Positions 21,056-62,893 of a stretch of DNA of 64,000 nt are shown one piece after another; within the stretch, counting starts at the first letter, position 1; every line of letters starts with the position of its first letter. The position numbers were made by a program, and so were the translations under genes. The stretch comes from Podaxis mareebaensis (Eukaryota; Basidiomycota; Agaricomycetes; Agaricales; Agaricaceae). The stretch spans positions 89,480-153,479 of the forward strand of contig JAEUWP010000462.1 of NCBI GenBank assembly GCA_018524725.1, written 5' to 3'. The notes under the pieces are model-generated. The model had not been told where the DNA came from, ran no database searches, and saw only the letters and a list, made by a program, of their open reading frames with translations.

Positions 21056-21929
21056 GGGTTGTAATGATTTTATTGCATGTGTCGTTAGTGGTGCTGGTCA
21101 AGTAGAGAACACAAAATCTTCTGCTGAAAGATCCGGGCGGCCCGGAGGCGTGAGAATCTATCAATAATCCATTGATCGCCACCGTCCACTCGTACCTACT
21201 TCCAAAGCTCTTTTTGTCCTCCAGACACCAACGCTCAGCGTTCAACGTTCGAGTTCCAGTCTACTGCGCCCGTGACGGGTACTATAACCATTGGGGAGTT
21301 CCAATCGGCGAAACTTTCGCGCTTCTGCAGTAGATCAGGAAAAGTAGCAACCTATTGCTCCAGAAAGTCTAAGTCTCCGCTACTGGATCTTCTAGACATG
21401 TGCTTCCGAATTCTTGGGGACTGTTTTACGCCATAATTTTGGCGTTTGGTCTGCTGTTGGAGCCCCCGGTCTCATCGGTTCCTTTCTACTAGCCGATCTG
21501 ATCAATCCCTCTCGCCTTGTGACCCCGGATATTATTAGCTCGTGAGACCACATTGTCATCATCCAGAGGCGACGTCGTTGTTGAGCAAACATACATCGAG
21601 TGCTCATGGTGGTTGTAGCAGCGACATGTGGTTATCCTGATGAACTCACAGGCCCTCGCAGCCGATATAATGCTCGACTCATTCCGAAGCCGCTTAGCAA
21701 GTCTGTAGAATCCCAGCTATTCTGTTCTGCATTCTAGTGCTCCGTGGACCCCGCCTATCCTTCCGCTTTTGAAACACGACCATCAAAAGAAATACATGCT
21801 ACTCGCCGCTCATGATGCCATGCCGAAGCTGTAAGTCCGAATATCCGTGTTTCAACCAAAAGTCGTCTCTGCATAAATACACCTTCGAATTTGAAGAATT
21901 GTCAGTATTCCTCAACGACACAGAACATC
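21056..21929. other. Divergent promoter region between URB1 and the thaumatin-like gene
   Basis: About 870 bp between two genes transcribed away from each other. No other gene is recognised. A weak TATA-like ATAAATA occurs about 60 bp before the thaumatin-like ATG. Confidence 0.5.
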
Positions 21930-22843
21930 ATGGTCTTTGCATTGAACATCGCCCTCGTAGCCTTTGGCCTCATCTCTACCGCTTATGCCGACCATACATG
22001 TGCGTTTGGGCCGTTTACTTTAGACCTCAAACTCATGCACGAGACTAATGATGGTGGTTGATCGTATCAGTCACCTTCAAGAACAATTGTAACTCGAACA
22101 TTCAGCCAGTGATTGCCAACGTCAACTGCGGATACTCTCCTCGTTGTAATACACCCGGCTCGGGTGGTGTGGTAAGTAAACAACAATGCTTTCAGAAATA
22201 TCCTTAAGGGATTCACCCATGACCCCCACGGCAATAGCCCAACCCCGCGATATCTTATACAGGACCCCAACCCCGCAGTTTGGGACGCGGTGAAAGCCAG
22301 ACGTTGCACATCAACCGGCAGGTAAGTCACCCGTGGCTTAAATGCTTCAACATAATTTAACAGCCATATGATCAGTGGAATGGCCGCATCTTCGCCCAGA
22401 ACGGGAACTGTGGTGCCAAGGGTGAAAGCTGTACTATGACTGAATTTAACCTTGACACAGGCAATAACTTTACTCCTCAGGTATGTGCAAACAATTCTCT
22501 TTTTCCATTACGGATTCTAACATTTTTCCAGGCATATGATATCTCGAACATCCAGGTATTTCTAACCACCTATTTACCACTTGACAAGTACTGAGCCTAG
22601 ATAGGGATTCACCCAATCCATCTCTATCGCAGTGAATGGCTGTGATACAGTCACCTGCACTAACGTCAATTGTGGTTGCCATAATGCTTATCCCCCTGGC
22701 GTAAGCTGTGTTCCTGCTTGTACATCAAGTGCTATTTTCTGACCAGCGGTTGTTCCTAGGATCTTTCTGGCTGTGGTAACGACTCTCCAGTACGCGGCTG
22801 CTCTGCCGGAGACCATTCCTGGACCATCACCTTCTGTCCCTAA
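21930..22843 (+). CDS. Secreted thaumatin-like protein
   Basis: Seven exons: 21930..21999, 22071..22171, 22238..22321, 22364..22480, 22532..22555, 22605..22700, 22760..22843 (576 nt, 191 residues). A signal peptide (MVFALNIALVAFGLISTAYA) is followed by FTFKNNC, SYTGPQP, WNGRIFAQNGNCGAKGESC, EFNLD and a cysteine-rich end (GCGNDSPVRGCSAGD, then a final FCP). About a dozen cysteines are present, fewer than the sixteen of plant thaumatins, as expected for small fungal members. Some family members bind or cleave beta-1,3-glucan; a wall-related role is inferred. Exon 5 is only 24 nt. The length fits the small fungal class. Confidence 0.9.
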
Positions 22844-23347
22844 GCTCGAAAGAAGGCCTACCCGATGGAGTTCGAGGGTGCATAGAGCGGGCTTGGTTCC
22901 TTTCGGCATGGAAGTTTCTATATTAAATACTTGTTTATGCATACATATGCGCAGAAATTCAAAGCGTCTTCTACGTAGTCTCTTTGATACTTGCTTGTCA
23001 CAAGAAGGGGTAGTGCAGGACAGAAGGCCAAGAATAGCGCCGGCAAGCAAACAAGTTGCCGCGAGCAAGGGACTATTGAGGGGTGTTTGGCTAGAGCCTG
23101 CGGGGTGGTCCCATGCCTTGGCGGACCTTTGGCGGTCCCACGGCGGTTGTACTTCACCCCAGCCTTGTCCGTGTACTACCCCAGGTACATCGCTCAGGAT
23201 CAGAGACCATCCTGGGTCTGTACTACATTCATTGCGTCGCCAGTGAGCCGCCAACGACCCTCGATTGTCAGGTTCATCATCTTAGGTCCGATAATCTAGA
23301 AATCTCGCATTAGTGTCTATTCTTCCCGTACCAGTAGCTTTGGACAC
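22844..23347. other. Intergenic region, no gene recognised
   Basis: About 500 bp. Long frames are open on both strands here (188 codons minus, 157 codons plus), but they overlap the last exon of the thaumatin-like gene or run into it, and they carry no family signature. Confidence 0.45.
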
Positions 23348-29381: not shown

Positions 29382-30411
29382 TCTTTATGAGAGTACCTGT
29401 CCAACTGAAGACTCCTTCAACCAGGCGGCTCTCCTTTATATGACCTTCGACTCATTGGAATAGGCGTACCAAGTCTTCAATTGTACCTATTTTGTTCCGC
29501 CAAGACAAACTCAAGCCCTCCTAAACCTCCTTCAGTAAGCAAGGTATAATCGAGTATCGAAGGTGTTGTATCACGCATTGTCTTCTCATCATGCGGTAGC
29601 CCTACCTTCATCCAATGGCAGAATACCACGATGTGATCGGGTATACTTGGGAATAGAACACGTGAACACCGCCTGAGCCCTCCATCTTTGTTATTGATAT
29701 CGCCATCGTACCGGCACCTGTCGACAGACATTCAACAAAAAGGTGAAGGCGAAGATACTGCGCGCATAGACGTTTCATTTCGTGAACTAAGATCCCTAAG
29801 GTCAGCTGATCAGTGCTTCGAGAGCTCTCTTACTAGAAGCTGTCTACTTGTAGCCAAACTTTTGATAGCCGGCTTTCAAAGGTTTAACCGGTGTGGTCGC
29901 AGGTGTGAGTAGCGCTAACAGTAGATGAATGTAGAGAACGGGACCGAGTGGGTTCCTCGATAAGAACGCAATTGTCAGACATTGACTAGTCTACCAACTG
30001 AACGTGTAAGCATGAGCCTAGATGGGAAGGATCTCAACAACTTTTGCGATCGAATTTTAAAGGAATCCCTTCGTAGCTGGTGCCCGGACATCCGCTTGAT
30101 GAGTATCACAATTCACCAGGTGTTATTTAGTCCCGAGCTTCTCCCTTGTCCAGTCGAATACGGGCATTCGGAAAAAGAGAGCGTCAAGTCTCCGATACAA
30201 TTAGACAAAGGGGGGTGCTTTTCTGGAATACAAGGAATGCATCCTTCTAGGAAGCATGTCAAAAAAAAATCAAATACTCCGAGGTGCGAGCTATAATTAG
30301 ACCGGTCCGACCACGCAAACGGCTGGTGGACCGTTTGCTGTACTTATGTCCACCACTGTCCTGTGGTTGCAGCATGATCACTGTGCAGAATATCACGAAG
30401 GGGCGACTTTG
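29382..30411. other. Intergenic region left of the Copia element
   Basis: About 1 kb: the SDR promoter followed by unremarkable sequence up to the retrotransposon target-site copy CTTTG at 30407-30411. No gene recognised. Confidence 0.5.
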
Positions 30412-31060
30412 TGTTGAGGAATTAATCAGCATTACGCTTACATGTATACTTGCCATCGGCAGTACATGCTGAATCCTCGACAAATATGCTCTGCATTGAC
30501 AGAGATGTTATATTTTTGGAATCCTCCATAGCTTTGTGCTATGATTAGATTGATCCATTTCTATTAATACTTTTATACACATACGTAGACGTACGGCCTG
30601 TGTTAGTATTACTCATATCCTCATGGATTATGACTCGTAGAAACGTTCTATGACTGCAGATGACTCCTGTAACATATGGTAGAGTCATGTTCTTTCTTAT
30701 TTTAACTTTTACATGCACATTCTTCATGTTATACGTGTGTATGCCTTATGTTTACTTACTCATGCATGTATTTTACCCTTGACCCAGTGTCGTAGCTCTA
30801 TGGTATTTAAACCTTCATGTAGTAGCATACTTTCTTCACTGGAGTTTTACATTCCTCGTCTACTCAACTACTCAGCTACTCTAAGCTCAACATTCCTCGC
30901 TACTTTCAATTCGGTCTTATCTTCTCTGGTACACCTCAAGACTTGCCCTTTCCTCATTTCTCAGGTCTTCTTCCCATTTGACCAGCCTCGGATTGTGAGT
31001 AACTGGTTTACTCTCCACTGACGCTATGCTTGTGTAGTAGCAACCATTCTCCCCTCGTCA
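30412..31060 (+). repeat. Copia 5' LTR
   Basis: 649 bp, from TGTTGAGG to CTCGTCA. A TATTTAA sequence near 30804 is a candidate LTR promoter. It differs from the 3' LTR at 27 positions with no indels; every difference is a transition at a CpG or inferred former CpG. Confidence 0.95.
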
Positions 31061-31072
31061 GGTTATGGGCCC
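31061..31072 (+). other. Putative primer-binding site (half initiator tRNA-Met)
   Basis: The bases right after the 5' LTR, GGTTATGGGCCC, match the complement of the anticodon arm of eukaryotic initiator tRNA-Met (remembered as GGGCUCAUAACC) at 11 of 12 positions. Copia and Ty5 are known to prime from this internal half-tRNA. They do not match a usual tRNA 3' end. Confidence 0.6.
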
Positions 31073-31244
31073 CGAGACTCTCCTTCCGAGGATTCTCTCC
31101 TATTAACTTAGGATTGAGATAAAAGATGTCTTGGGATAAGCCTATTACTACCTTTATTGTTATCTGTATACAATGTTATACTAATACCCCATTTTATATT
31201 GCTTAGTTGATTTCTTATCTGCCAATTTCTTTGATACATCAAAT

Positions 31245-34200
31245 ATGGCTTCGACTATTGCTACTTCTTCCCTTCCTAAACTTGAGGGCCCCTCTAACTA
31301 TAAGTTCTGGACTCGTTGTCTCCAAGGAGCACTTTCCTTGATTAGTGTTACCAGTTCCATGGAAACGGGCTGGACTCTGACCAGTGGAACGGCGACAGCA
31401 CCTGCTCAGAATGACGCAGCTGAAACGGCATGTCAGAATCAGATGAAGGCACAAGCCTTATCGATTATCGAGAACACATTGCCTGATTCTATGCTGCTTC
31501 ATGGAAGAACAGCCCCAGACACCTTATGGACTTATCTCCAAACTCAATTTGGAACGCTTGGTCTAGCCAACATCTATGGCTTGTTCATCCGAGCTCTGAA
31601 AAAGAGAATCACTGGCAAAAGAGATATTGCGGTTGATATCGCTGAAATGGTGACTCTTTTCACTCAGGTTGAGGAAGCTACTGCTGCCATCCCTGAAGTT
31701 CTCAGAGCTATGGTTCTTCTTTTGGCTATTCCGGATGATTGGGATTCAGTCCAACAATTGTTGTTGACCAACAATACTATGATTGCTGCCCTAACTTGGA
31801 AAGTGGTTGCAGATGCTTTAAATGCTGAATGGGCTCAGCAGAATGGATGTAACAAAATGTCCACCCACCTCGCCAATGCTCAATCTGCTAACAAAGCTAA
31901 GCTTCCCAATGACCAAGGCGGTCCTTCTGCCTGGAATAAATCTTGTCTGGGTCCACCTTGGAGTCGATTTATCCCTCAGCCTGTCAGCTGGGATAAAACC
32001 TCCAACAGTCCCAAGCCTCAAGGCCAACAAGGCGGTCAGCCTGGTCAATGGCAGACCATCAAGCCAAAGAAGAAGAGGGCTCCCAAGAAGAAGAAGTCCC
32101 CTAATGCCTCAGCCAAACCAACTGATTCCATGGCGGGTTTTGCTGCACCTGCTCACCTAGTGGCGGCACATCCACTTCCCCCTGTTGGTACTGGTAGACC
32201 TTACACAGGTCCCAACATGCACCCATTCGACCTCTTAGATCGAATCCAGAGGCCACAAGTGAATGCACCTCGCATTCTGCCTCAGGCTTTGGTCCAACAA
32301 TGCCTTGCTGCTACGGTTCTGCAGGATCGTCCCCTGCTTCCCTCACTTTCTCATCGGGTACGATCTCAAAACCCTGTTCCCATTGCTCTGACTTACTTTT
32401 CTGCTTTGCAGGAGAAACGTAAGTTTGAAGAGTCAAAAATAGAGGCGAGTAACCTCTGTTTTACTGCTATTCTTGAGCTTGAGATAATCAATCTCGCACA
32501 GGAGGCACAAGAAACTCTTCAGGCGATGAAATGTCAATGAACTGATACTGCGACTAAGTCACTGGATCAGATTCGAGAGGAACAGAAGATCAAGACCCAA
32601 TGCTATCGCAACATCAATCACGCTTGTAAGCTTCATCGTGCTCCTACTAAATGAAGTGTTCAAGAGCTGATTGAGGAAACCTTACTCCTCATGTCGCTAG
32701 ATGATGCATCCAAGAAAGTGAAGAACTTCAACGAAGACTTCCCACCACTTCTGGGACAGTCTGGTCTTCTTCCACCCAGTCACCCAGTCGAGGTAGGCAA
32801 TTATGCTCGACATGTCTGCATGGGTAAATGGACTAAAAATCTGCCCAAGAAGACCGCTCCCTCCATGCAGCGAGCTGAAAAGCTGTATGATGTTGTCAAA
32901 GAAGCTCTTCATGAACACAAGGAAGAGAAGCAGAGGAAGGCTCATGAACTTCGCTTCAAGAAGAAGCCAAAGGTTCAAGGGGAATGCTACATCCCACACA
33001 TAGGTCGCTTCTATCAAGATCTGATGAACCAATTAATTCATTTTGGTGTTATTCAGGATACTTGCGAAGTCGATCCTAAAGTATGTGTTAACCCTATTGG
33101 TCAATTATGGCTTATTCATTTCCTTGTTACTCAACAGGGAGAACAAAGCTCTCGTGCCCTACAAGAGGCGCTTGCTGTGATCGACAAAAACCCTGAAGGT
33201 TATCCATCTGATCCAAAAGATGTCGAATACCTTTACTCAATAGGCTTAACAGAACGTGAATGGGATGAAGCAATGGCGCCTTCGACCTCGTCGGTCGATG
33301 TTCCGCCTGCACCACCTTCTTCTCCATGGCTTCCCAGAGCATCTCATCCCAATGATGAGATCGATCTCGTCGGGAGCGATGTCAAAGATCACCCGCCTCT
33401 TGTCAACAGCCCACGTCATCTATCTGATGTAGATTATGATGCCAATGACACGAGTGATGCCGATAGCAACTTCGAGAAGAAGAAGGCTATGGGGTATGTA
33501 ATCCATATCTTATCACCATCATCTGATGCTGATCACCTCCATACTCAGACCAGTCACAACGCTTCCTCTTGGGAAGAAGAAGGGCAAGCTCAGCAAGAAG
33601 CACCACACCAAGGCCAAACGTCGTGAGGTTTAGAGGGTCGTCCGTGCAGGACAGAAGGAGGAAGAGGAGATGAGCACCTACCATCACGGGAATGGATACT
33701 TAGGTGGCTCATAGCTTTGGACAATGTAAATTTCTGTGATGGATCATGTACAGAACACGTAGCGATGTGCACAAGCACATCTTGTTTTAATGTCATTCAT
33801 TCTGTACATGCACCTCCTAGTCCGAAATCCTCTAAGATCAGAAGATATGAAGATGATGAGATAATAAGAATGGATGAGTATGATGCTATTTGGTTATTAG
33901 ATTCAGGAGCATCTGGCCATTATACGCCATATATGGAAGACTTTATTGACTTCCAGTATTACCCTGAACCTATAACTGTATACACTGCCGGTGAACCAAT
34001 GATATCACCAGGCCACAGTACCATTTTGGTTGAAACCATGGTTAATACAGATAATGGCACTCGGATACTTAATCATTCATATCTATATCCAGTGCACTAT
34101 CTACAAGGTAGCGGAGATTGATTGTTATCAGTTGGTCAGCTCGCCAAGGCTGGAGCTAAAATAGAAACCACTGATATCTGCTCACGTGTCAACAACTCTT

Positions 34201-37200
34201 TGAACGAGCTGATACTAGTTGCACAACCAATGATAGGTTGTTCACCTACCCTTCATTATGTGAAGAGTAAAATTATTAAAACGCATGATGATATGCATGT
34301 GTTTGCAACTAGTACCATACCAGATTATAACATCCTACATAATAGGATGGGACACCTGTCAGATCGTATCCTCAAACATTTTGAGATAAATATGATTGGC
34401 TTTCCTCATGTAGAAATTCCCAAAAATAGCATGAAACCATGTGAAGGTTGTGCTATGGGAAAAATGCATCAGAAAAGCTTCAATATAAACTTCAAGAGAG
34501 CATCCAGGCCTCTAGAAAGAATCCATTCAGATCTTTTAGAAATGCCTAAAGTTAGTTACCAAAAATATAAATGGGTAATGACTATTTTGGACGACTTCTC
34601 CTCAAATGCTTGGGTCCATTTACTTCATAAAAAATCCAAAGCACCCACAGTTATGAAGAACTTCTTGACCTTAGTCATGAGACATATTGGCAGTCCAGTA
34701 AAGTTCTTACATACTGATCAAGGAGGAGAATACGTCAAAGAAAGCTTACAAGCTCTCTTACACTCTCAGGGGATTATCCATGTGACAAGTGCTGTTATGT
34801 AGAGACGGTTTCTACATGTCATCTCAGTGTGGAGAGATACTGTCCTAAGACACCCCAGCACTATTAAGTTCCTGAAGCAGAACGCCCATCTGTTCTCCAG
34901 AGAGAACTAGAGGCTGGCTGGAAATCTCGCAGGGACTGCCTAGGGAGAGATATGACTTGTAAGGTCGCAGGCTACTCCGTAGGTTTAGCTGTTATGCCAG
35001 TTATCCTGTCGAGGCAGGTAGAGCTCTCACGCAGCAAGAAGATAAAGCAGAAGACAGTCCTCACTATTCTCATGCTATGTACAAATGATCGTAAAGCTAA
35101 GTTCTACTTACTTTACGAGCTATCTAAATACTAGGGCAATTGCTATCTTACATGTCCTAAAGGAGAATCTTCGTAACTACTTCAGTGCTCTAAGTATAGA
35201 AGACCGAGCCCGAGGTAAGATGAGATCTACAGAAGGCAAGCTATTATTACACAACATATCACTGAGCCCGAGTGCTAAACATAATGCTCCTTTGGAAGAT
35301 CCGAGGTGGGACTGAGGTTGCAATGGAGGGTGGATCAAGGTGGATGCTTGAAGTTGAGAGACAGAAAGACAGTTGACAGACGACGAGGCGGAAATCCAAA
35401 AGAGGCATAGATGGTGGTGGAAGCGAGAGGAGTGTAACAAGCGCTCCACATGCTCACCAACAAAATGGTAGAGCGGAACACCTCAACTGCACTTTAATGG
35501 ATAAAGCTGAAGCCATGCGGCATCATGCTTGTATTCCAGATAGTTGGTGGGAATTTGCGATTGATACAGCTTGCTATCTTTACAATTGCACTCCCATGTC
35601 TCAACTTGATTGGAAAACCCCTCAAGAAGTTTTAACAGGTGTCAAACCAGATGTTTCTAAATTCAGAACCTTTGGATGTGGCGCTTATGCATTCTTACCC
35701 AAAGAAGTCCGAAAAGATAAACTATCCCCCAAGTCAGAATTGATGATATTCCTGGGATATTCTCCAGACTGAAAGAATTATCTGTTCATGCATCATCTGC
35801 AAGGCAATGTCATTTACATTTTGCCAACTGCTATTTTCAATGAACAATTCTTTCCTAAATGTTCTGAAAAGAAACATAGATCGAGTAGTAGTCGTAGTTC
35901 TTTGTCAAGAACTCCTACACCACCAAGTGAGGTAATTATTTACCCAAAACAGGATAATTCGAGGTCACCACCTCCAGAAAGACCTTCAGCTCCAACGCCA
36001 CCATTGTCCTCTTCATCCAGTCCAGACCCTAGATATTGGAATGGAACTCCAGATATAGACGATGATAATGAAGACAAGGACAGCAAACATGACCTTACAC
36101 GAGAAGATCATGATTCTGATTTAGAATATGCTGATCCTAAAGATTATCCTGATCTAGAAAGACATTCGCCTACACAAAGCGTTGATCCAAATGATAATTG
36201 AGATCCATCTCCTTTTTTGGATGACTTTGAAGAATGAGGTGATGATCAACCTTATACGGCATCTCCCCCTGTTCCTCAGTCTCCAAGATTAGAAGAGCAT
36301 GAGAATCGCAGTGATGATCCACCCTTTAGGGAAGAATCATCAAGCCCTGTACCCAGGACTTCTGAAAGTGGAGTACCACATGGTCCAGCCACGATGTCTT
36401 CTAGGTTTTCTCCCATGAAACCTGCGCAAAAACATCAAGCTGCTTCTCCACCATGGATACAACCATGGCAAACTACTTCTAATCAATGTCCTCAAAGAGA
36501 ATGTCGGGTTCCTTCTAAACCTGGAAACATATATGGAGATCAACACCCGGCAAAAGTACTACGTAACTATCGAGGCTTCGAATGGATACCTCCTAAAGGA
36601 GAACCATTACTTAAGCAAATTCACAAACAAAGCCCTGTAGCACTTCCTGATGTTGAAAATGAAATGCCACCTGATGAACATACACTTGATTCTTCACAAA
36701 CTTCTACATCAATGGAACTTATGATGGTACATTACGTAAACAAGTTATGCAAAGAAGGAGGAGTGCAATTCATCGATTTTCTTTTCACAAACAAAATTGA
36801 TGCGTCATATACCCCTAAAGTCTTCAAAGACCTAGCTAAACTCCCCAAGGAGATCTGCAATAAGTGGTATAAAGCTTGTCTTGAGGAGATAGATGAATTA
36901 AAGAAATGACAAGTGTATGAACTTGTTAATCTTCCAAAAGGAAGAAGAGCGATTGGAAATCGATGGGTTTTTACTCCGAAATCTGATGGCAGATTCAGAT
37001 CTTGATTAGTCACACAAGGGTTCTCACAAATCGAAGGAATTGACTTCAACGAACTCTTTTCTCCTGTTGTCTGGTACGAGACTGCACGATTGCTATTTGC
37101 GATAGCTGCCCTCGAGGACTGGGATATGTTTGGTCTTGACATGAAGACCGCTTATCTCTATGGACATTTAAAGGAAGAAATCTATATGTGACAACCAGAA

Positions 37201-38361
37201 GGTTTTGTCCAAAAAGGACAAGAAACTAAAGTATGGTGCTTGAAATGTGCCTTATACAGTCTCAAACAAGCTGGCCGACAATGGTGGCTTGAAGTGACAA
37301 ATTCGATGAAAGAATTAGGCTTCAAACAAGCATCACTTGATGCAGGAGTCTATTATTACTACAATACATGAGAGAAATCTCTTATCATTGCACTACTTTA
37401 TGTGGATGATGCAGCTTTCTTAGGACCACGTGGATCGAAAATTCTTCATCAAAAAATAAAAGTGTTCATGGAAAAATGGGAATGTCGCTTTTTAGGTGAG
37501 CTCACTGAATTCCTTGGAATGCGTATCATGAGGGACCGTGATAATCTATTGATCATGATTGATCAACAACCTTACCTTGATAAGGTTTTAGAATGTTTTA
37601 ATGTGGTTGAAAAAGCCGAATCAACTCCATTGCCAAGAGACTTTGTCTTTACTATGGCAAAAGATGAGGCATCTGCCAATTTTAGGCAGAAGTACCAACA
37701 ATTGGTTGGATCTTTGATGTACTTGATGATCAGATCACATCCTGATATTGCCTTTGCAGTTGTCAAGTTATCCCAACAAATGACAAATCCGTCATGGGAA
37801 CACTATAAAGCCAGCTTACATACTTTGCGATACCTTCGCGGCACATCTAAATATGCCATTGTCTATGATGGACAAACAAATGAAGGAATCAATGTGTTCT
37901 CTGATTCTGATTGGGCACAAGATCCAGAAACCAGGAAATCGGTCACTGGCTTCTTCATTAGAATAGCTGGAGCAGCCATTTCATGGCTATCACGGCACCA
38001 GAAGACCGTTGCCTTATCATCAACAGAAGCTGAATATATGGCTTTGTCCGATGCTAGTCGACAAATTGAGTGGACAGTTAACCTGCTCACTGAAATCGGC
38101 ATTAATCCAGAAAGGATTAAAAAACCACACTTATTCAGTGATAACTGAGGTTCAGTATTTTGGGCCAAAAATCCAGTAACCAAAAAACGTTCAAAACATG
38201 TGGATGTTAAATACCATTATATCTGCAACTTACTTGAGGATGAAAAATTCCTCCTGTATAATATTAAAGGGACTGAAAATCCTGCAGATTTATTAACTAA
38301 GAATCTCGACAATCAGAAGTTTAATTACTTCTTGCCTTCATTAGGCATCGAATTCTTTTAA
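31245..38361 (+). pseudogene. Copia gag-pol, interrupted by TGA codons and a nested LTR
   Basis: Removing the insert 34793-35439 and one AGCGC duplication copy leaves a single frame of 2155 codons ending in TAA at 38359. In-frame stops at 32538, 32652, 33624, 34119, 35770, 36199, 36235, 36907, 37003, 37189, 37369 and 38146 are all TGA. Recognisable parts: a gag-like N-terminus (PSNYKFWTRCL) with a lysine-rich stretch (KPKKKRAPKKKK); protease WLLDSGASGH; integrase with HNRMGHLSD, CEGCAMGK and the D-D-E residues in HSDLL, HTDQGGEY and NGRAE; reverse transcriptase with YVDD (about 37400); and RNase H (SDSDWA, SSTEAEY). No canonical CCHC knuckle is seen. The stop at 37003 falls where Copia elements carry a conserved arginine (xRLVxxGF). 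Confidence 0.92.
34793..35439 (+). mobile_element. Solo LTR nested in the Copia integrase region
   Basis: 647 bp starting TGTTATG and ending TGTAACA, flanked by AGTGC (34788-34792) and AGCGC (35440-35444). This is a 5-bp target duplication whose copies differ by one CpG-to-TpG change. It is clearly homologous over its length to the 650-bp LTR at 59998-60647. No internal retroelement sequence lies between its ends, so it is a solo LTR left by recombination. Excising it with one duplication copy restores the integrase frame exactly. Orientation is assigned arbitrarily because both ends form a TGTTA/TAACA inverted pair. Confidence 0.9.
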
Positions 38362-38378
38362 ACTCACACTCTGACAAT

Positions 38379-38391
38379 TTCGAGTGAGGAG
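38379..38391 (+). other. Copia polypurine tract
   Basis: The bases just before the 3' LTR are purine-rich (GAGTGAGGAG directly abutting TGTTGAGG). Position and composition fit the plus-strand primer site. Confidence 0.6.
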
Positions 38392-39040
38392 TGTTGAGGA
38401 ATTAATCAGCATTACACTTATGTGTATACTTGCCATCGGCAGTACATGCTGAATCCTTGACGAATATGCTCTGCATTGACAGAGATGTTATATTTTTGGA
38501 ATCCTCCATAGCTTCATGCTATGATTAGATTGATCCATTTCTATTAATACTTTTATACACATATGTAGACGTATGGCCTGTGTTAGTATTACTCATATCC
38601 TCATGGATTATGACTTGTAGAAATGTTCTATGACTGCGGATGACTCCTGTAACATACGGTAGAGTCATGTTCTTTCTTATTTTAACTTTTACATGCACAT
38701 TCTTCATGTTATACACGCGTATGCCTTATGTTTACTTACTCATGCATGTATTTTACCCTTGACCCAGTGTCGTAGCTCTACGGTATTTAAACCTTCATGT
38801 AGTAGCGTACTTTCTTCACTGGAGTTTTACATTCCTCATCTACTCGACTACTCAGCTACTCTAAGCTCAACATTCCTCGCTACTTTCAATTCGGTCTTAT
38901 CTTCTCTGGTACACCTCAAGACTCACCCTTTCCTCATTTCTCAGGTCTTCTTCCTGTTCGACCAGCCTCGGATTGTGAGTAACTGGTTTACTCTCCACTG
39001 ATGCTATGCTTGTGTAGTAGCAACCGTTCTCCCCTCGTCA
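38392..39040 (+). repeat. Copia 3' LTR
   Basis: 649 bp, the same length as the 5' LTR. It is followed by the target copy CTTTG at 39041-39045. Confidence 0.95.
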
Positions 39041-39045
39041 CTTTG

Positions 39046-42000
39046 GGTGTAAGAGAGAGGTGTCAGTGTCTGTCTGATAATGTTTTTGACCTAGTATGGT
39101 GCCAGATAATGGGAGATAGCTCGAAAGTGTAATGAGACACATACAAGAGGTTTACTCGAAGGATTCCCGATGGGAGTGAAATGGAAAAGAGGAGCTGAGT
39201 TTCGGGGGAAAGCCTCGTATATTGCCTACTTTCATTGTATGCTCAGGGCGGTTTCCATACAGACAAATCTCTATATTTCAAACTCGGAAGTGGTCAGTAT
39301 GAGCCGAAAGACTCTGAGTCTAAGGAAACTACCTAGGGGAGAACAAGAGGGAACTTGTAACAGAAACGTCATGTGCGAAGTATAAGTATTTTGAGAGTGC
39401 ACACCAAAAAGCACAGCATGGAACTAAGGGGTTATGCACAATATAGGGATTGCGGATCGGCTGCTGTTGTGGACACCGTCCTCCCTCCTCCCATACGAAG
39501 TCATCACCAGTTCACCACCTCGATACTCGATACTCCTCGAAACATGCGAACGACGTCTCTAATATTTGGTACAACACTTCTTCCACCTTCGGGAGGGTGG
39601 GGCCTGGTTCCTTGCGCAATGGAATCAACTCACCATACACGCTATACCATCCAGGGGCATCCGATCTCCGACTATCATTTTGATCTTGTGTTTACATTTC
39701 AAAACTTGCAGTCTTTGTTTCTGTAGCTGGATACTTAGGAATGAAACGTCATCATAAACAATAAGATTCATAACTTTTTTCTCTTCTATTTCTCTTGACT
39801 GTTTCTCTTGTAATCTAGCATTTTTCTCACTGTACAAAATCACCTCGAGCTGTGGTAAAAAGGTCAGGTCGTGGGTACGGCAAATACAAGTATTGCTTAC
39901 CATAACACGCTCTCTTCCCGTTATCCTCTCAAATCGGACTCACCACTATTTCATTCTCTGCACAATTTCGGGACTTTTAGAGTAAAATTTCTTGACACAG
40001 CCATTCAATAATTTCGTACTTTAAGCATGAACCTAGTTTAGTTTTGACTTTCTGTTTCGAGTTGTATGCGTTGTAAACATTCACCATTGACCTACCGCAA
40101 CCTTAAACCTCTCCCAAGAAATAAGTACCCCCTGTTCGTAGTATACAATATCAAATTTTACCCCATTCTTTTCTTCTCTCAAGGTTTTGGACAGTCTAAA
40201 ATAGATCATTATTCAATCATCTCTCTCCATGAAATCCATGCTCATGTTCCCTAAGGCACTTTAAAACGCGCTACCTCTTGTTTATTGGATGCCCTTTTTA
40301 CACGGTTCCCCTTGGACACAATCTGGAGCACCGGATTGGCGGTCCAAGACCGTTACGAGCCCTGAGGCCTGACCTTTGATCCGAGGACTTGGATGATCAA
40401 TTGATGATGGACTGTTCGTTGTTCGCCACCCTTACACGACCCTGTTTTTAGATAGACGTTTCATACTGTTGCCCTTTCTCCCGCAAAGCCTTGGGTCCAT
40501 TCGTAGCTACCGTGGATTGACAATTCTTTTATTTCTTTCATGCTGTCCCTCCTTCGTGACCCTTAGCAATAGAGTATATAGTAGCACTGGCCGTGGTAGA
40601 CAATGTCCCTCAGCTCTTATACGCATTCGTCGGGTGAATGAGGTGAGTTATATAGCACTTATATCTTTCTTGATGCTCATTATATGCTAGTTATACTGTT
40701 ATTTCTTCGCGTACTAAAAATATAGATCTCGTATGCACACGTAGAGCGACTGAATTATACTGTTATTTCCTCACCATATGCTCAATAGATCCGGTCCTAT
40801 ATGCACAGAGAACGCTGGCGTCAAAGGTATGTAGGAGGGAGACGACGGATGGTGGTTTCATTGCTAGTCGACCTCCGACCTCCGGACCAAGCAACCCGAA
40901 GTGCAGGTGAAGTCTATTCCATACTGCCGGTTAATAAGTGTTCGTGACCGGTACAACCTTGTTCTGACCGCAATTCCAATTTGTGGCACCCTTTTCACCT
41001 TATTGTGAACGTTGCAGGGCCTCGCCTGAGGGCCGTGCGCAAAATACGTTGTGGCGACTTAGCGAGGGAGTCTGTCTGTTACCGGTAGTCAGAGCCAGAG
41101 AGATTCACAATCGGCTTTTCGGGCAGCTTGTATTGAGCAGGTGTGTAACCAGAATTTCATTCACCGGTGTGGACATCTGCACATTAGCTTGGGACATAGC
41201 GTATTCGGTTGTACAGGCTCTTGCAAGTTATCTATCCCACCCTAGGTACTGTAAGATACTCCAGTCCCACCGTGATGAGTCTTCCCTTTATGCCACCAGG
41301 ACCGGTGACATGATGAGATCACGCAGATGGGGGATCATGGGCAGCTTGGTTGAAATCTTCTTCACAGGTAATGACAAGCTCCACCATCTGGATCCAAAAT
41401 TGGTTGGAAACATTGTGAGACTTCAGGGAACGTATGATGAACAAGGGCAAAGTCATCTCCGTGGAGACCATCACCTCTTTCGGAGAATGTATAACGGCTG
41501 GCACTCACAGACTTTTCAGACGGGTTCCCCGGGACCAAATGCTCCAGAACGGCGATACCAGAGTCAAGGATACCTTGACACCCATCAATCATGAAAAACT
41601 ACACCAAAGCTTTAGAAGCCGTAGCCGATTGGCACTCAAAAGCACGGCCAGGAGACAGAGGCTAGGAGCTCTTTTGGGCGGAGATGTCGGGTTATGATAG
41701 TCAAATTTAGCCGTGGGTCTGGCGGCCTCTGTTTAGAGACAGCTGTTCCCATCTTGAAAAGGGGGTTTCGGGAGGAACGTTTCAGAAAGAAGCCATTAGA
41801 GGCGAAAATCTGTCTCAAGTGTGTATTCACGATCAAAAGGGTTAATACGACTTAATGACTTCCATAACAAAAGTGCATGATGATAGAGGAATCCGGAAGC
41901 AATGCTTATCCACATGTCGCAACTCTACCTACCCCATTCATCGAATAGCAACTCTACCTACCCCATTCATCGAATAGGAAAAAATTGTAAACATATCACA

Positions 42001-42285
42001 AGCCGGGTCCTCAAATCCAATTCCAGTGGCCATGTGTTTTGCGCTATTCATTCTTGCATAAATTTCATCCTAAGGGTCTGATATCTCCCCTCTGAACAAT
42101 ATCATCCAGCCTGCTTTTGCAGTGATGATGTAATTGTACTCGTGACAGACATGTGTTAACACCAAGGAGTCCGATGACGCAAGCTACTACTTGTCCTAAC
42201 TGACTATACTTGCTGATCCACCCCTCCAGGCTAGTTGCCTTAACCCCCAAGCACCGCAGACAAACATCAAGGAAACAACAATTCA
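39046..42285. other. Intergenic region right of the Copia element
   Basis: About 3.2 kb without a gene I can support. The longest frame (40983-41594, plus) has no recognisable motif. The minus strand at 41360-41590 has a somewhat protein-like stretch (GDGLHGDDFALVHHTFPE) that could be a relic. A perfect 29-bp tandem duplication lies at 41919-41976. Confidence 0.5.
41919..41976. repeat. Perfect 29-bp tandem duplication
   Basis: Two identical 29-bp units (41919-41947 and 41948-41976), each beginning GCAACTCTACC and ending CATCGAATA, abut exactly. It lies about 310 bp upstream of the HAD gene start. Confidence 0.9.
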
Positions 42286-43541
42286 ATGTCAAAACCTCGG
42301 ACACGCCCGTTTATTCGAGCGCTCTTAATTGATGTCTCAGGAAACCTCCACGTTGGAAATAGCCCAACGCCAAATGCTGTCGAAGCATTTCATCGCCTAC
42401 GAAATTCCGGTATTCCCTTACGCCTTTGCAGTAACACAAGCAAGGAGTCTACCGCGTCGCTTGTTCGTAGACTGAGGAAGCTTGGGTTCGACCTGGAACC
42501 ATCGCCGGGCTTATCAACATCGGAAATTACATTCGATCTGGCATCTGATATAAAGAATCGTAGTGATCAACAACATCACCGCCAAGGACGGCGGGAGGTA
42601 TGGACGAGTATTGGTGCCGTTGCTCAATATATCCGGAACCAAGAGCTGAAACGGTGAGTCTTTCTTTCTGGCCTATCATTTTTCGTTCCCTACCAGGCCC
42701 AAATCTGATGAGCCCGCATTAATTCTGATGGTTTCAAGACCTTACTTCCTCCTCTCATCATCTGCCAAGGAGGAAATCATTTCTTCTCAGAGTGGGAACG
42801 GGCCACTCGAAGACTCTGATGACTCACCATACGATTCCGTCGTTGTGGGGCTTGCACCAGAAGTCTTTGACTACTCTCACCTCAACACCGCATTCCGTAT
42901 CCTGAAAGGAGAGCTTGAAACGCAAAAGAAGACAAAGGCAGGGAACCGACCTCCCAGGAAAGAAGTCTCGGATGACCATGGAGGATTGCCGTTTCGCCCA
43001 CAATTGATTGCAACACACAAAGCCAAGTACATTCAAACCGAGGCTCCTGCCGGTTTGTCCCTTGGCCCCGGTCCATTCGTAACGGCACTAGAAGCTGCCG
43101 CAAACGTGGAAGCCCATGTTGTCGGGAAACCCACGCGACTATTCTTCCAAACAGTCATAGACGACTTTTACGCCTCAGGCGAACTGAGCCAGACAGAGCA
43201 TCACGGAAGGATTGCCGTCGTTGGAGATGATGTGGAAGCAGATTTAGGTGATGGTGCAATTGAAATGGGGTTGTGGAGAATACTCGGTGAGGCGTATCAA
43301 CTTTCCTTACCCTTGGTTCCTTGCTTCTGGGGACATGTGCGCGAGTATTTGTACTGATATTGATGTTGTTTTGCTCCTCACAGTAAAGACTGGGAAGTAC
43401 CGGAGCGGTGATGAAAGCCGCCCTGGGATTACCCCACCCGATGAAGTGCTAGACTCATTCTCTGCATTTGTGGAAGTTCTTTTAAGAGAACAGGTAGGCA
43501 GTACAACCCTTTCCGGCATAGGAAGGGCGGTACAGTACTGA
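42286..43541 (+). CDS. HAD-superfamily hydrolase (HDHD2/LHPP-like)
   Basis: Three exons: 42286..42653, 42739..43286, 43384..43541 (1074 nt, 357 residues). The N-terminal LLIDVSGNLHVG supplies the nucleophile aspartate, NTSKES is the motif II threonine/serine region, and GRIAVVGDDVEADLGDGAIEMG carries the metal-binding acidic pair. KYIQTEAPAGLSLGPGPFVTALE matches the substrate-loop region of the class IIA phosphatases HDHD2 and LHPP. A phosphatase role is inferred; the substrate is unknown. An internal acidic insertion (about residues 138-155) is longer than in animal members. The last 15 residues (after LLREQ) may be read-through past a donor-like GTAGGC. Confidence 0.9.
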
Positions 43542-46500
43542 TTATCTCCTTCACAAATAGCAACGCGATGCGTGTTCCCATAAACTCTGATTTCATCAGC
43601 GCGCCCGACTTCGATTAGAAGAAATCAGAAGCCCTTGAAGCATCTTTTCTCAAAACCGATACCCAAGTACACCATTACCCCACTTATTTCAACAGTTTCC
43701 TCACCCTTACTCAACAACCAACTGATCACCCTTGTATTTCTACCAATTATCACACGTCTTGAAACGCGAGGGAAAATGGTAGCACATGGTTCTGGGCTGT
43801 AAGATGTTGGGTTTACGCAACACACCGCCTCTGTTTGAGTTTTGAAACAATAATATGATGCGGACCTAATGAATGGAGCGCGTTTACATTTGCCGACGGG
43901 CTGCACGGTATTACTGAATATAGGTTGTGGGTATGGCGTGCGACGCGGAAGGGAGAAGCCGAACCTGTACCGCCGCGAAAACACAGGGATTGACATATCC
44001 CCGAAGGTCAAATAGAAGGTGTTACATCATAAGAGTTGTAATGAATGAAGTATTAATATCTTGCTCGTTTCGGAAAACTCCCTCTTGAGACAGACCCACT
44101 TGCTGGCAAGAGGGTAACATATGCGGTCCTGAGAGAAGTCTAGAACATTTCTCTCGGGCTGGCTACACACCATGTCCGAAGGATGGTCGGTTCTATCACA
44201 GAAACAATCCGCTTCTCGTCTTCGATATAATTAACATAACAACATCAAGTATGGATTGACGAGGTGATCACCTGAACAATCGGAATTCTGTATACATCAC
44301 ATGTTTACGAATCGCGAGAGAGAAGCGTTGGCCATGAATCTAATGTTAGCGTGCCGATACGAAGCGAAAGGAGTTTCGCTTGACATGCGCTGCCGAAATG
44401 ATCAACAATGGTCTACACTGCCTCACATATTGGAGTTATTTCGAGACTTTTCGCTCCATTGTAATCGTTTCTTCCGATAGCGCGTATAGTGAATGACTTC
44501 TAATACGTACCTTATCCGGGACTCGCTCCGTGGTGAATAACTCATACACAAGTACGAGTGCACTATGGAGTGATTCCTAAGAATGCCTCCTAAGCGGGAG
44601 GAAATGCCCGCCGACTTGTAATCTTAAGCCTTGTGGACATTCAGAGGATACCCTTCTCTCGGCTTTCAAATAAAAGAACGATGAGTATTACGTGCCAAAG
44701 AGGGATACATGTAACTCGCGCACAGTGACATTGGGATCTTGCGATCGATGAGTATTCTCTTCCTTATAATAACTCCTGCCGCCGTTACTAGACGTGAGAA
44801 GGTCGAACATGGGAACCATCCTTGCTCATTGTAGACCACGTGCTACTCGTCCAACCACGGTGATGCTCTTCTATGGTCCAAGTTTCTGTGTTATTAGGGT
44901 TAGTGCCTCGTGTTATCGAATCCCAAGAACAATATTGGTGTAATCAACAGCGCGGCAACATCATATGATTGACACTGAGCGGAGAACCCGACGGGTTAAC
45001 TATATAGCACCCCTGCCGGAGGAAAAGGGCCGCTGACCAGTACAAAATATAGACGCCATAAATTCACTCTAATACTGAATGGATATAGTCTCAGTTGAGG
45101 TTCGATCTTGGTTAGACGCTATGATAATCCCGATGGTCAAGGGGGCTACACAACAAGGTTACCATAAATAAACGTCCAATGGACCGAGGAACCCATATCC
45201 GTCAGTCTCGTGCATAGCAGGCGGTTGTAACTGTGAGGCTCGTATGCACTGGGAACACACTTCGCTTGCTCAATGCCGACACCTGCCAAACTGCGGCACT
45301 CCCGCACCTCGAAGACCTTCCTTCCTCTTGCAAACTGTGTCAACTAAGTACACTTTGCCGCAATGATTTCCCGCACTACTGAACCAATCGCAAAGCAGCC
45401 AGCTCCAAATGAGACAATAGAACGCCAAGGGAACTGGACGTCATGTGTGATATACCATGGATCCTTTCTCTTCACCTAGAACCCCGTTCCTCTTCGAACA
45501 CCTGAGGTCCATCACTGTAGCGTATGAAATCGGCGATTGCCCGATGGTGTGTGTTTATCCGAAGTTTCGCTTACTGGGTGGAGGTTGGGGTTCTGACGGC
45601 AGGTTAGATTATGGAATGGTACTACCATTGGTGCATCAGCGCTGTTCGCGGCAAGAATTGCTTCCAGACATGCTTCTCCTAGTACTTTCTCGTCCAAGAG
45701 GCATCGTGAGCCTATGGGCGATGGTTCCGGTTATTAAAATGATTACCGAGGGGGAGACTGCGATCTCATGCGCGACAAGTTCATAACGAACTCAACGATG
45801 GATTAGTCAGTGGGGGTCAATCATTATGGCCATATCGGTGCTCATCGAAGGCCGCCGATGGGCTTTGGGCAAGGAGAGTTGTCACACCTGGTGGCAAGAT
45901 GTGAGAGTATTTTGGAAAAAAAGGGGCTTCTCGTGGATCAACGCCTCATCAGGTTGAACTCAGGTGGGGATGCCGATCGGATATGGATTGATCATCTCAT
46001 GAAGCTCATGAGGCCAGGCATCTTTGTCTGACATGATTGGGAAAACAGCTGCTTTAGGGGCTCGGGATGGGTGGGCTAAATTGCAGCTGAACATCTAGGG
46101 TTCAAGAGGGGTTGTTAAGAAGGCGATAGAACGTACCGTAAATAATTTGGCTGTTCGTCCGTGTTACGTCGCTGAATTTCATGGAACACGGTGATAAATG
46201 CCGAGGATGTCGGGGAAACAAGCAAGCCGGTGATGGCTGCTAGTCACGATGTATATGGCGGTAAAGCAAGTCGTGCTTCTTTACGCAGCAAACCTTGAAC
46301 GCCACGCTGGAGGCTTAGAAAGAAGATTGTTCTTGGAGGGGTTGTGATGCACGAGCATTAGTTTGTATCAAGGTGTCTGAACGGGGAACTATCGGTGTGC
46401 TGCCGTGGTGCATTAGGTACGCTACAAAAGTTGAAAATGATCCAAATTGTATATGTAAATTCCAAGTGGTGGGGTCACTAATCGCCGACTTTGTGGGGCA

Positions 46501-47827
46501 GTAAATGAAAGCAGCATGGCTTTGGGTCTACTTCTATTAACCTGATGGCTGCGTGACCTTTGAAGAAAGAATAAAGCCGTGATAAGTCACGGAGAAAGAG
46601 CAATGAATCACAGAGATGTACGATCGTCAAGTAGTTGTTTGGATGAGGAGTGACGGTATGTGACAGGGATAGAAACTTGCATGGGAGCCTGAATCTTGAG
46701 CTTGATGGACATATCTTCGCATTCCGAGCCGGAGCTAAAGCGCCAGGCTTTTGGATTATGGCTGAAGAAGGACAGAGAGCAACGGGGGATTCTTATCCGC
46801 GCGGTCCAAGGAGGCCTGTTCGGCGACTTGAAGGAAGAGTAAGATTATGTGAGCGAAAGGGACGGAGGAGAGGTTAGATGATGGACGGCGAAAGTTGGAG
46901 TCCTGATAAGGTATTTGGATGACGATCCTCGTCGAGGCAGTACGTATGCAGGAGTAGAGGAGTGATTTGTAGAGGAAGGAGCGTGTAGACCAGGAGGCAT
47001 TCATTGACCCTGAGCTACGGGTTCCTGTTGGGAGGAATAGAAATTGACGGAGTGACAGTGGGCTAGCGGCTGGTAGATCGTCCTGATTCAGTCGTTTGAA
47101 GGCCGAAGCAGTAAAGCAACGTGGGGGAGGCGACTAGATCGGCACTGAGTCATTTGAACGGCGAATAGACTGAATGCCGGCGCATCCTCAAAAGGAAAGT
47201 CATCCGCATGGGGCTTCCTTTCCTTTCCTGGCCTCCGCTTCTTTTCGCCGCCCGGCCGGAAGGCTCATCAGGTTTGGGAGCGCGATGCGATCGACGCTAC
47301 ATATGTCACGGCGGTGTGACTGCGGCATCTCGATCTCGCATCCTCTGACACGACGATCCGCAGGAGAAAGTGCGTTATGTGCTGCCTCAGGTGTGTGCGA
47401 AGGGCAGAATGTGCTGGTTAACGGGAGAGAAACAGGAGGAAAGAGGGCGTCTGATGCTCGGATCTGCACGTGGTGGTAATAGAAAAATTATGAAGAGCCA
47501 GGGCAGAGACGCCAATCCTCGTTTCTGCTGAGGTGCCATATCGGGAGATGTCGTCACATATGGTAGGCGTTACACGGTAACTGATTTAAAGGAGTCGGGT
47601 TGCTCAGACTGTTTTCCATTTTGTGCTGTGTTTGGGTGTGTTCCCAAACCTACGAGTCCATATCTGTCCACAACCATCACTGGTCTCCTCGGTCTCCCAC
47701 TTGCTTCTCAACAATCTCACTGCCTCACTTTTAGCTCTAACTCTTGCTTACTCTCGGTGTCTTAATAGATCACCTCCCCACCTTTATAATCCTTGGATCC
47801 CCCTCCTACTCTTGTCCCATCCAAACA
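43542..47827. other. Long intergenic region, no gene recognised
   Basis: About 4.3 kb. Open frames are short, scattered over both strands and do not splice into recognisable proteins. The last few hundred bases are presumably the promoter of the zinc-finger gene. Confidence 0.5.
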
Positions 47828-49553
47828 ATGTCCTCCCAATCACGCAACACTGACCATCAAATGTCCCTCCCCGGTATTCGTGAAATGTTTCCAGGCATGC
47901 CCTCCTACCTTTCGCCGGTTGCTTCCACTTACCACCTAATCCACTAGAACTTCATCTCATGAATCCGCCACACATTCCTGGGCCCTCTAGAATGGGCCCT
48001 CAACCTCACCACAATCCGGTATGTTTGTGCACACTGTCCAGAATTAACCAGCCGTTCATCGTGACTACCAGGAACCCGCCCGAAATACCTACTCCCCAAA
48101 CTGCCCACCCTCCCATCCTCAGACACGGACTTCTACTATCCTCCATCCACACGATGCACAATCACCCAGACATCAACCCGCATCCAACTATTGGCGCCAC
48201 ATAGGTGATTCTCGCACCCAACCACTATCTAGCGCCACACTGCCGCCCCGACGACAAGACGCCCCGCAATTTTCTAGCCAGACAGTTGACGGCTGGTCCG
48301 TTACCCCACAGCCGACGTCGTCTATCCCAGTGAGCCACGATACCTACCAGCGCAACCGCCATGGCCGACCCGTTGAGTCAACCCCCCCAATGCATCCGGG
48401 ACGGGCTCCGATGCGCCAAACACCCATTGGCCACCCTGACGTCCAGCCGATCTCTTCCTCGGATCCGTCACACTCTCGTTCAGTGCGACATCCAGGGCCG
48501 TCGCCTTCCCCCCAGGCACTCGAAGATTCTGGAAACCCCACTGACGATGAAACCATCGCTGGGGGAGCACCTTCTGGCATTCCACGGAAGCACATTTGCA
48601 TGATTTGTGGAAAGGCCTTCAACCGCCCGAGTAGCCTCAAGATCCACTACAATACACATACTGGTGAGACACGTACGTACTCCTTTTGCTTTGTCAATAC
48701 AATAGTGATTGAATGTGAATTAATTTTGTGTGTTTCAGCGTTCCGATGTCCTTGGCCTAAATGTGGCCGTGAATTCAATGTGAACTCAAACATGCGGAGG
48801 CACCTCCGTAACCATACTGCGAATACAACTCAAGAGACCCAAGATGATGGTGCACGTAGGCGACGACGGCGCTCGAGTGCGGGTTCGTCAAATCCCCCTG
48901 TGACTGTGATGCAACAGTCGGCAAGCGAAACGCGGGCTCAACCGCAAAACAACGCGCCTCGTCACCAAGTGCCACCGCCACATTATAGTGTTCCACCCCC
49001 CACCCCGAACGCATCCCGCCACCATGTTCGTTACGACCTTTATCATCACTACAGCAAAGATTATCACGGAATGGATGTGGACGATGTAGATGAGTACCAT
49101 GTATCTGAAGATCCGCATCGCTCTAGCCGCGTACCTGTACCCGTGACACGGGTACTTGAGACGCCAACAGAGCCCCGCGGAACTACACACTCGGCTTCAC
49201 GGTACAATGGGGCGCCCGCCCAACCCGAATATCCATTCCACCACTCCTCACACTCACCTTCTACAAACATGAGGATGCGGGCGTTAACTCCTGGATCTAG
49301 CTTCCACTCTTCCTCTCCGTCGCCATCACCATCACCTTCGTTATCTCCAACCAGTTCTTCGTTCAATTCTCCTCCACCCTCTGCAATGACGTCTCCGGCT
49401 CATTCACCTGCCGTCCTGCCGCGCATACAGCCGGGCCAGCAGTACCAATACAGTCCGTCTATGCCGTATCTCAGGGATGTCAGGGACTCACACGTCTCTA
49501 CCGCCCTAAGACCTGCTTTCAATGCTGATAGCAACGCTGCTGTTCGTCGATGA
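47828..49553 (+). CDS. C2H2 zinc-finger transcription factor
   Basis: Four exons: 47828..47894, 47948..48018, 48072..48672, 48739..49553 (1554 nt, 517 residues). The N-terminus has LPGIREMFPELHLM, which I recall as a recurrent start of agaricomycete C2H2 regulators. A Pro/Ser/His-rich region precedes two fingers at about residues 220-275: CMICGKAFNRPSSLKIHYNTH (C-x2-C, H-x3-H) and CPWPKCGREF...HLRNH (C-x4-C, H-x3-H). A cluster of basic residues (ARRRRRRSS) follows, then a disordered Ser/Pro/His-rich tail. The two-finger pair with C2/C4 spacing resembles fungal stress regulators such as Seb1. Intron 1 appears to use a GC donor; a GT donor at 47874 would also keep frame but would delete GIREMFP. 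Confidence 0.87.
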
Positions 49554-58344: not shown

Positions 58345-58428
58345 TCATGTGCGGGTCTAATCGAAAGACGAGCTGGAGATATTGAATCCGATTACAGTCT
58401 CACGCTCTTCCAACTGAGCTAAGGTCGG
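58345..58428 (-). pseudogene. tRNA-Tyr(GUA)-like remnant with a short intron
   Basis: The minus strand has CCGACCT, TA, then the D arm GCTCAGTTGGAAGAGC (matching the A-box consensus) and an anticodon loop CTGTAA with GUA. After an apparent intron of about 12 nt it continues TCTCC, closing four anticodon-stem pairs. The T arm CGTCT-TTCGATT-AGACC has a good loop and four pairs. The 3' side CGCACAT does not pair with CCGACCT, so the acceptor stem is broken. I read it as a decayed tRNA-Tyr rather than a working gene. Confidence 0.4.
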
Positions 58429-58429
58429 C

Positions 58430-60660: not shown

Positions 60661-60689
60661 ATGATCAAACTCCAGATTGATCTACCTAT

Positions 60690-62890: not shown

Positions 62891-62893
<3 letters not shown>

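Follow-up and report, generated by a model that had tools for sequence, protein, structure and literature searches.

In a 64,000-nucleotide stretch of the Podaxis mareebaensis genome (contig JAEUWP010000462.1, positions 89,480 to 153,479; hereafter the window), a Ty1/copia retrotransposon carries two long terminal repeats (LTRs) that have diverged from one another at CpG sites and nowhere else. The pattern extends well beyond this one insertion: in 22 LTR pairs from the same genome, 402 of 424 changes are lesions at CpG. We consider it probable that maintained CpG methylation, combined with poorly repaired deamination, drives the decay of these LTRs, and we set out below the evidence for this explanation together with the points that weigh against it.

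CpG loss in paired LTRs

The LTRs of a retrotransposon are identical at insertion. The window element has LTRs with TG and CA ends and is flanked by a perfect 5-bp target duplication, and is thus taken to be a single intact insertion whose LTRs were identical when it landed. Base-by-base alignment of the two revealed 27 differences in 649 aligned bases, all transitions and without a gap. These comprise 19 single sites at which CG in one copy faces TG or CA in the other, and four double sites (eight bases) at which TG faces CA; there was no change outside CpG. Every figure in the original prediction, which had counted 27 differences in these same classes and no indels, was therefore reproduced by realignment. 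CpG-type positions make up 60 of the 649 bases and the chance of all 27 differences landing there is approximately 1e-28, hence chance was rejected as the cause of this confinement.

The genome searched for further pairs was assembly G000 (36.95 Mb in 429 contigs). A host zinc-finger protein encoded in the window has its best five named relatives in Macrolepiota, Leucoagaricus, Leucocoprinus (two) and Agaricus, at 51–63% identity; all are genera of Agaricaceae, which on the strength of this one protein points to an agaric, most probably of that family. From 95 candidates we scored the 40 nearest to the window LTR, so that the family is larger than our sample and the sample leans to near relatives; the search gave 40 full-length and two partial matches. 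Thirty-two of the full-length matches are the paired LTRs of 16 elements, while eight have no mate among the scored matches; five of these eight were fetched and entered in the column tables only, and those on contigs C343, C345 and C202 have a match to the reverse transcriptase domain RVT_2 close by. An exact 5-bp target duplication was present at 14 of the 16 family pairs. At L021 the duplication is GTGAT on one side and GCAAT on the other, so that host-derived DNA too shows a TG/CA difference, and at L022 the two do not match, possibly because it is a recombinant between two elements (it was retained in all counts). At L020 (C315:280771-289406) a full family element lies within an inverted LTR of the same family. 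To these we added eight loci around other reverse transcriptases, which were fetched mostly for their long open reverse transcriptase frames and therefore lean young. Six gave LTR pairs, with exact target duplications in four (L036 and L038 have inexact ends); L041 has its second LTR truncated where the fetched sequence stops, and at L042 none was visible. The total sample of 22 pairs (16 from the Copia family and six from other elements) was thus chosen rather than random.

Within the 16 family pairs, CG faces TG or CA at 198 sites, TG faces CA at 42 and CG faces TA at one; the remaining changes are 14 of CpA type, five other transitions and one transversion, and eight of the pairs differ at CpG only. 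Among the other elements, two pairs have identical LTRs (168 and 159 bp), and in the rest CpG accounts for 11 of 11 differences (365-bp LTRs), 17 of 18 (672 bp), all 38 differing bases (691 bp) and 52 of 53 (721 bp). Counting each TG/CA site and the single CG/TA site as two lesions, the 402 CpG lesions of the full sample fall on 2516 cytosine positions, whereas the 23,794 non-CpG positions hold 15 CpA changes, six other transitions, one transversion and no indels. CpG lesions recur in 20 of the 22 pairs, and ten pairs show CpG changes and nothing else. The claim of the original prediction that nothing had changed outside CpG therefore stands for the window pair but not for the sample as a whole, where 22 of the 424 changes, 15 of them CpA, lie elsewhere. 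Realignment produced neither the transversions nor the abundance of non-CpG changes that would have spoken against the prediction, with none in the window pair and 22 of 424 overall.

Per site, CpG was hit at a rate of 0.160 and CpA at 0.0047, a ratio of approximately 34, and the CpG rate was 470-fold that of positions that are neither. The ratio of CpG>T to CpH>T was 67 in the raw data (95% interval 39–165, bootstrap over elements), 109 (66–260) after correction for saturation, 121 (62–694) in the raw data of 16 less saturated pairs, and up to 189 when corrected in the 14 least saturated pairs. Non-CpG transitions of undirected polarity were all counted as C>T, and in that respect these ratios are lower bounds. 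The predicted process, directed at CpG and fast relative to ordinary substitution, is thus borne out.

Outside the element, all 25 of the 2-kb bins at window positions 1-30000 and 40001-60000 have an observed/expected (o/e) CpG ratio of 0.79–1.03, a control that describes the CpG composition of one strain's window DNA rather than a direct rate, and from which bins touching the element, the bin 62001-64000 (o/e 0.54) and a repeat at 60001-62000 were omitted. Two stretches of 3 kb sampled from the control (20001-23000 and 44001-47000) match themselves alone in the genome, and are thus single-copy. Judged by window composition alone, the C-to-T transitions are confined to repeats, and the equal decay of single-copy DNA that would have contradicted the prediction is not seen by this measure. 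The left flank of the element contains 13 CpG against 12.9 expected in 250 bp, indicating no leak, and the right flank seven against 10.2 (P 0.20), which is not a significant leak. Among other copies, the outer flanks inspected vary in o/e between 0.00 and 0.97; they may themselves include repeats and are hence not decisive.

These data make it very improbable that the copies are simply old, in a genome where CpG is somewhat more mutable everywhere. Ordinary old age would account for the fact that CpG loss and non-CpG changes climb together across copies (Spearman 0.61, P 0.003). However, it sits badly with the ten pairs that changed at CpG alone, with a single transversion among all non-CpG positions, and with non-repeat bins that retain their CpG while the o/e falls to 0.49 in the element and 0.04 in the neighbouring repeat.

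Strand, context and tempo of the lesions

In Neurospora-type repeat-induced point mutation (RIP), each event leaves many lesions on the same strand. For tests of strand and context the single CG/TA site was dropped, leaving 400 lesions, which are divided evenly between strands (199 on the plus strand and 201 on the minus strand) and between LTRs (210 in 5' and 190 in 3' copies); the strand balance per copy is not overdispersed (chi-squared 35.2, 39 degrees of freedom). Neighbouring lesions share a strand in 192 of 360 cases, compared to 178 ± 8.5 when shuffled, and thus show no clear clustering. Simulated strand-pure events acting over the whole LTR gave 269, 241, 216 and 199 same-strand neighbours for 2, 3, 5 and 10 events per copy respectively, which rules out up to three such events per copy and leaves ten or more compatible with the data. 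Along the internal region we found no patchiness in the 369 CpG columns (the largest of six lag values being -0.034, standard error 0.013), and strand autocorrelation was nil at four of five lags.

The base preceding the CpG also matters. TCG is the context least hit, with lesions at 66 of 495 cytosines compared to 334 of 1465 in the other contexts (0.133 and 0.23 per cytosine, P 4e-6), such that its rate per cytosine is 0.58 times that of ACG, CCG and GCG combined; the deficit holds separately for the Copia family (P 0.0003) and for the remaining elements (P 0.005). Within coding sequence, CpG decay can create only one stop codon (CGA to TGA) and should therefore generate an excess of TGA among stops. 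This was found both in RVT_2 matches (123 of 159 in-frame stops, carried by 58 of the 77 matches listed) and in RVT_1 matches (169 of 176, carried by 96 of the 150 matches scored out of 501 candidates), compared to 37–45% expected were C>T and G>A changes blind to context, as computed from the codon counts of four elements whose open frames are long. We rejected the idea that former CpG sites are hot spots for a second hit, since in each of the five copies analysed (L021, L017, L023, L012 and the window element) TA at these sites was rarer than conversion of CA or TG to TA elsewhere; in L021, for example, the counts were 4 of 340 and 30 of 597. A lost CpG looks as if it were protected from a second hit.

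Estimated loss per LTR ranges from none to approximately 0.9 of CpG sites and is graded between copies. If CpG loss is assumed to stand in one constant proportion to other changes, the maximum-likelihood fit to the 22 pairs is adequate (deviance 20.9, 21 degrees of freedom, P 0.47), on a clock of 22 changes of which 15 are CpA. A model with an initial burst fits no better, although the profile likelihood admits a burst of up to about 0.1–0.15 of CpG sites. The original prediction had argued for a directed process rather than ageing. The direction at CpG is upheld, but a single burst is not, given that loss is graded and rises with non-CpG change (the Spearman correlation given above), and the decay resembles rapid ageing restricted to one class of site rather than one directed burst.

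Some lesions appear to be older than the insertions that carry them. In 31 CpG columns of the LTR family, the derived state is common to both LTRs of an element at 97 sites, compared to 37 sites with TG facing CA. Were decay independent after insertion, the two counts should be equal, and some lesions must therefore have come from the parent copy or have been spread by conversion between LTRs; the window element itself has three shared derived sites and three TG/CA sites. Derived states between elements follow their non-CpG kinship, albeit weakly (Mantel rho 0.26, P 0.009). This sharing within and between elements favours real mutations, and it bears directly on whether the differences are artefacts of sequencing or assembly, in which basecalling errors at methylated CpG would create false TG and CA. 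Some long-read chemistries do err at methylated sites. However, such errors would not readily account for lesions common to both LTRs, for sharing that tracks kinship, for the absence of indels from all 22 pairs, or for the near absence of CpG from the oldest-looking copy (L021, internal o/e 0.06), and of the explanations considered we give this one the least credence.

L036 and L038, the two pairs with identical LTRs, are other Copia elements with open frames of 1408 and 1453 amino acids, and their internal regions are CpG-poor (o/e 0.69 and 0.40). They are perhaps young elements already short of CpG and escaping its decay.

Structure and surroundings of the window element

The window element was assigned to Ty1/copia on the basis of its paired LTRs with TG...CA ends, the short target duplication, a PF14223 gag domain and an RVT_2 reverse transcriptase (Table 1). 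The gag protein had no match below 1e-3 among public proteins.

Table 1. Features of the Copia element and its target site, in window coordinates
Feature	Position	Strand	Remarks
Target site duplication, left copy	30407..30411		CTTTG (5 bp); identical to 39041-39045
5' LTR	30412..31060	+	649 bp; 16 CpG remaining; carries 14 of 27 lesions
Internal region	31061..38391	+	7331 bp; CpG o/e 0.49; 137 of 369 family CpG columns still CG
Open reading frame with copia-type gag domain	31245..32540	+	431 amino acids; PF14223
Putative solo LTR of another element	34785..35436		652 additional bp
Reverse transcriptase domain RVT_2	36910..37617	+	PF07727; three in-frame TGA; profile match at G000:C360:126389-127096
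3' LTR	38392..39040	+	649 bp; 17 CpG remaining; carries 13 of 27 lesions
Target site duplication, right copy	39041..39045		CTTTG

The 652-bp piece in the internal region has no counterpart at the same site in 15 other aligned copies. It reads as a solo LTR running from TGTTA at 34793 to TAACA at 35439, with element boundaries judged by eye, and flanked by a 5-bp repeat (AGTGC/AGCGC) that is itself a TG/CG difference. Element L014 contains the same piece in the opposite orientation at a different site, the two inserts being 88% alike. From sequence, this reads as separate insertions into two copies of the Copia element of one 652-bp sequence (TGTTA...TAACA), which would be the solo LTR of another family. 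Positions 60028-60480 are 86% similar to 34825-35278, within this insert. They lie in the repeat at 60001-62000, which has a CpG o/e of 0.04 and at least 40 copies, most of them at 81–84% identity. Elsewhere in the genome, elements L039 and L040 are CpG-rich (internal o/e 0.94–0.95) but lie in flanks of o/e 0.00–0.04 over 0.2–1.5 kb, and are fresh insertions in fully decayed DNA.

A probable role of methylation and deamination, and alternative mechanisms

A profile search of the genome for cytosine methyltransferases (PF00145) gave five matches in four genes. The gene on C147 is DNMT5-like, matching structure 7r76 with an E-value of 4.7e-124; the entry names the molecule Rad8, and we take it to be the DNMT5 of Cryptococcus. 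Two genes match DNMT1, one on C109 with a GPPCQS motif and an RFD match 2.2 kb upstream, and one on C384 with a BAH match below the curated cut-off, while the gene on C150 matches DNMT2. None of the four reads as RID-like, although this exon-wise search can miss genes, as the PF03167 search missed uracil-DNA glycosylase (UNG). For that reason we rejected the loss of uracil-DNA glycosylase as a cause of weak repair: the null result with PF03167 was a search miss, and TIGR00628 found UNG-like exons at C150 and C4 (E-values 2e-22 and 6e-15, below the curated cut-off). The genome also contains seven matches to TET/JBP dioxygenases (on C93, C346, C162, C356, C100, C286 and C90). In Basidiomycota, DNMT1 with an RFD domain and DNMT5 are described as the CpG maintenance enzymes (PMC13297926).

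Under the explanation we favour, CpG sites of an inserted element would become methylated on both strands, and the mark would be kept by the CpG maintenance methyltransferases (DNMT5 and the DNMT1-type enzyme bearing an RFD domain). Thereafter, each 5-methylcytosine would deaminate to thymine separately, on either strand and at independent times, and the resulting T:G mismatch would often be left unrepaired, giving TG or CA. Initially identical LTRs would in this way diverge almost solely at CpG, with CpA the next most affected. Lesions confined to CpG, even between strands, acquired site by site, graded between copies and unseen in the non-repeat DNA of the window, in a genome encoding CpG maintenance enzymes, are as predicted by deamination of 5-methylcytosine. 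Methylation of these copies, the spontaneous nature of the deamination and the weakness of repair are what we infer from this pattern.

Several observations weigh against this explanation. The CpG excess of 67- to 189-fold, depending on the subset of data, is above the 5–20-fold of methylated vertebrate genomes; in the survey of 108 species that supplies this range, plants show 1.5–4.5-fold, the ratios are genome-wide averages over methylated and unmethylated sites, and fungi are not among the groups named in the part consulted (PMC12994199). Passive deamination would therefore account for it only if repair were unusually weak or the background unusually low. The avoidance of TCG finds no explanation in simple hydrolysis, neighbouring lesions lean slightly to the same strand (P 0.06), and one of the five lags of strand autocorrelation in the internal region reaches z 2.6. 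With a cruder estimator, the clock fit to the 16 family pairs was rejected (deviance 39.4, 15 degrees of freedom, P 0.0006), driven by one nearly CpG-free copy. Moreover, CpA accounts for 15 of the 22 non-CpG changes, and as these 15 are likely products of the same process, the clock fit cannot separate steady deamination from repeated weak rounds of a RIP-like pathway. In Zymoseptoria methylation is mostly at CG, yet the mitotic mutations dependent on dim2 occur at CA (PMC8016269), hence a methylated CpG need not be the mutable site. Finally, repeat clusters of Agaricus bisporus, a member of the same family, are reported to lack an AT shift, from which the authors conclude that there is no RIP (PMC7473861), and decay this strong may not be general in Agaricaceae.

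The original prediction had named both methylation with deamination and a RIP-like pathway. The former fits, whereas RIP in the strict sense does not and was rejected on the mutation spectrum (CpG to CpA about 34:1), the even strands with no clear clustering, the TGA stops, the graded loss and the deficit at TCG. Neurospora-type RIP likewise turns C to T in repeats (PMC12543289, PMC4352252), but prefers CpA and needs RID, in contrast to the CpG preference and the lack of a detected RID-like gene here. A pathway resembling RIP, in which an enzyme would search for repeats ahead of meiosis and actively turn C into T at CpG without the ascomycete RID, is a different matter, and we regard it as unlikely. 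It would explain why CpG is lost in repeats while non-repeat window DNA keeps it, why the excess over background is so high and why CpA is the second target, and a burst at insertion of the size admitted by the profile likelihood would be compatible with it. Against this, CpA is a minor target; strand clustering is not clear, with one to three strand-pure events per copy excluded, though ten or more are not; there is no leak into the left flank, and the deficit in the right is non-significant; the LTRs are identical in two of the 22 pairs and carry few lesions in several others; lesions are apparently inherited by daughter copies (the 97 to 37 imbalance, to which LTR gene conversion could contribute); none of the four methyltransferase genes reads as RID; and a screen across the fungal kingdom detected RIP-like signatures only in ascomycetes (PMC12543289).

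A more speculative proposal, which we hold to be rather improbable, is a CpG-specific mutator of mushrooms that operates without RID. Here the DNMT5 or DNMT1-RFD machinery, or a partner, would promote deamination or block repair at methylated CpG in transposons, raising the excess to several times the vertebrate level. Shedding CpG may be a way for elements to escape, as L036 and L038 would suggest.

CpG-biased decay of transposons is already known in mushrooms; what is new here is its purity, its rate and the independence of strands. The closest precedent is Ganoderma sinense, in which 98.7% of methylated cytosines are at CpG, almost all mutated transposable elements are methylated, transitions dominate, CpG is preferred with CpA second, and TGA stops are named as a result (PMC4457147). 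That study compared any copies of transposable elements, found more than 87% C:G>T:A and called the process RIP (PMC4457147), whereas our data come from LTR pairs that diverged after insertion, with tests of strand and context that favour decay through methylation. Amselem et al. (2015) described a basidiomycete signature associated with Masc2-like Dnmt1 that likewise targets CpG without RID and involves the DNMT1 class, and favoured deamination of 5-methylcytosine; their cases were rusts and the anther smut, with 10–40% of copies biased (PMC4352252), while the present genome encodes DNMT5 and two DNMT1-type genes and shows lesions in 20 of 22 chosen pairs. In Austropuccinia psidii older elements are also CpG-poor, attributed to 5-methylcytosine deamination and insufficient mismatch repair rather than RIP, with age taken from identity to a consensus (PMC8063080), whereas LTR pairs date each copy separately. 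RIP-like mutation in Microbotryum and other Pucciniomycotina is a CpG-specific C-to-T change in basidiomycete transposons as well, but TCG is favoured there (PMC4352252, PMC4014442) and least hit here. In Rhizoctonia, CpG-biased decay between nuclei includes genes (PMC4014442). Our literature search, conducted largely without subscription papers, found no LTR-pair measurement of CpG decay in mushrooms.

These results affect how insertions are dated and how defence against transposons is studied in basidiomycetes. Retrotransposon insertions are usually dated by the divergence of their LTRs, and where nearly the whole of that clock is CpG decay, as in the 22 pairs, standard dating would overstate ages, such that 4% divergence between LTRs may mark a recent insertion. 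Conversely, an LTR pair is a clean mutation assay, since its two copies are identical at the outset; from a single assembly it shows on which strand, in which context and how fast methylation-linked mutation occurs in each copy. With such pairs, one can test directly whether 'RIP' in basidiomycetes represents active defence or no more than poorly repaired methylation. The excess of rate over vertebrates, if upheld with measured methylation, would call for an explanation in repair.

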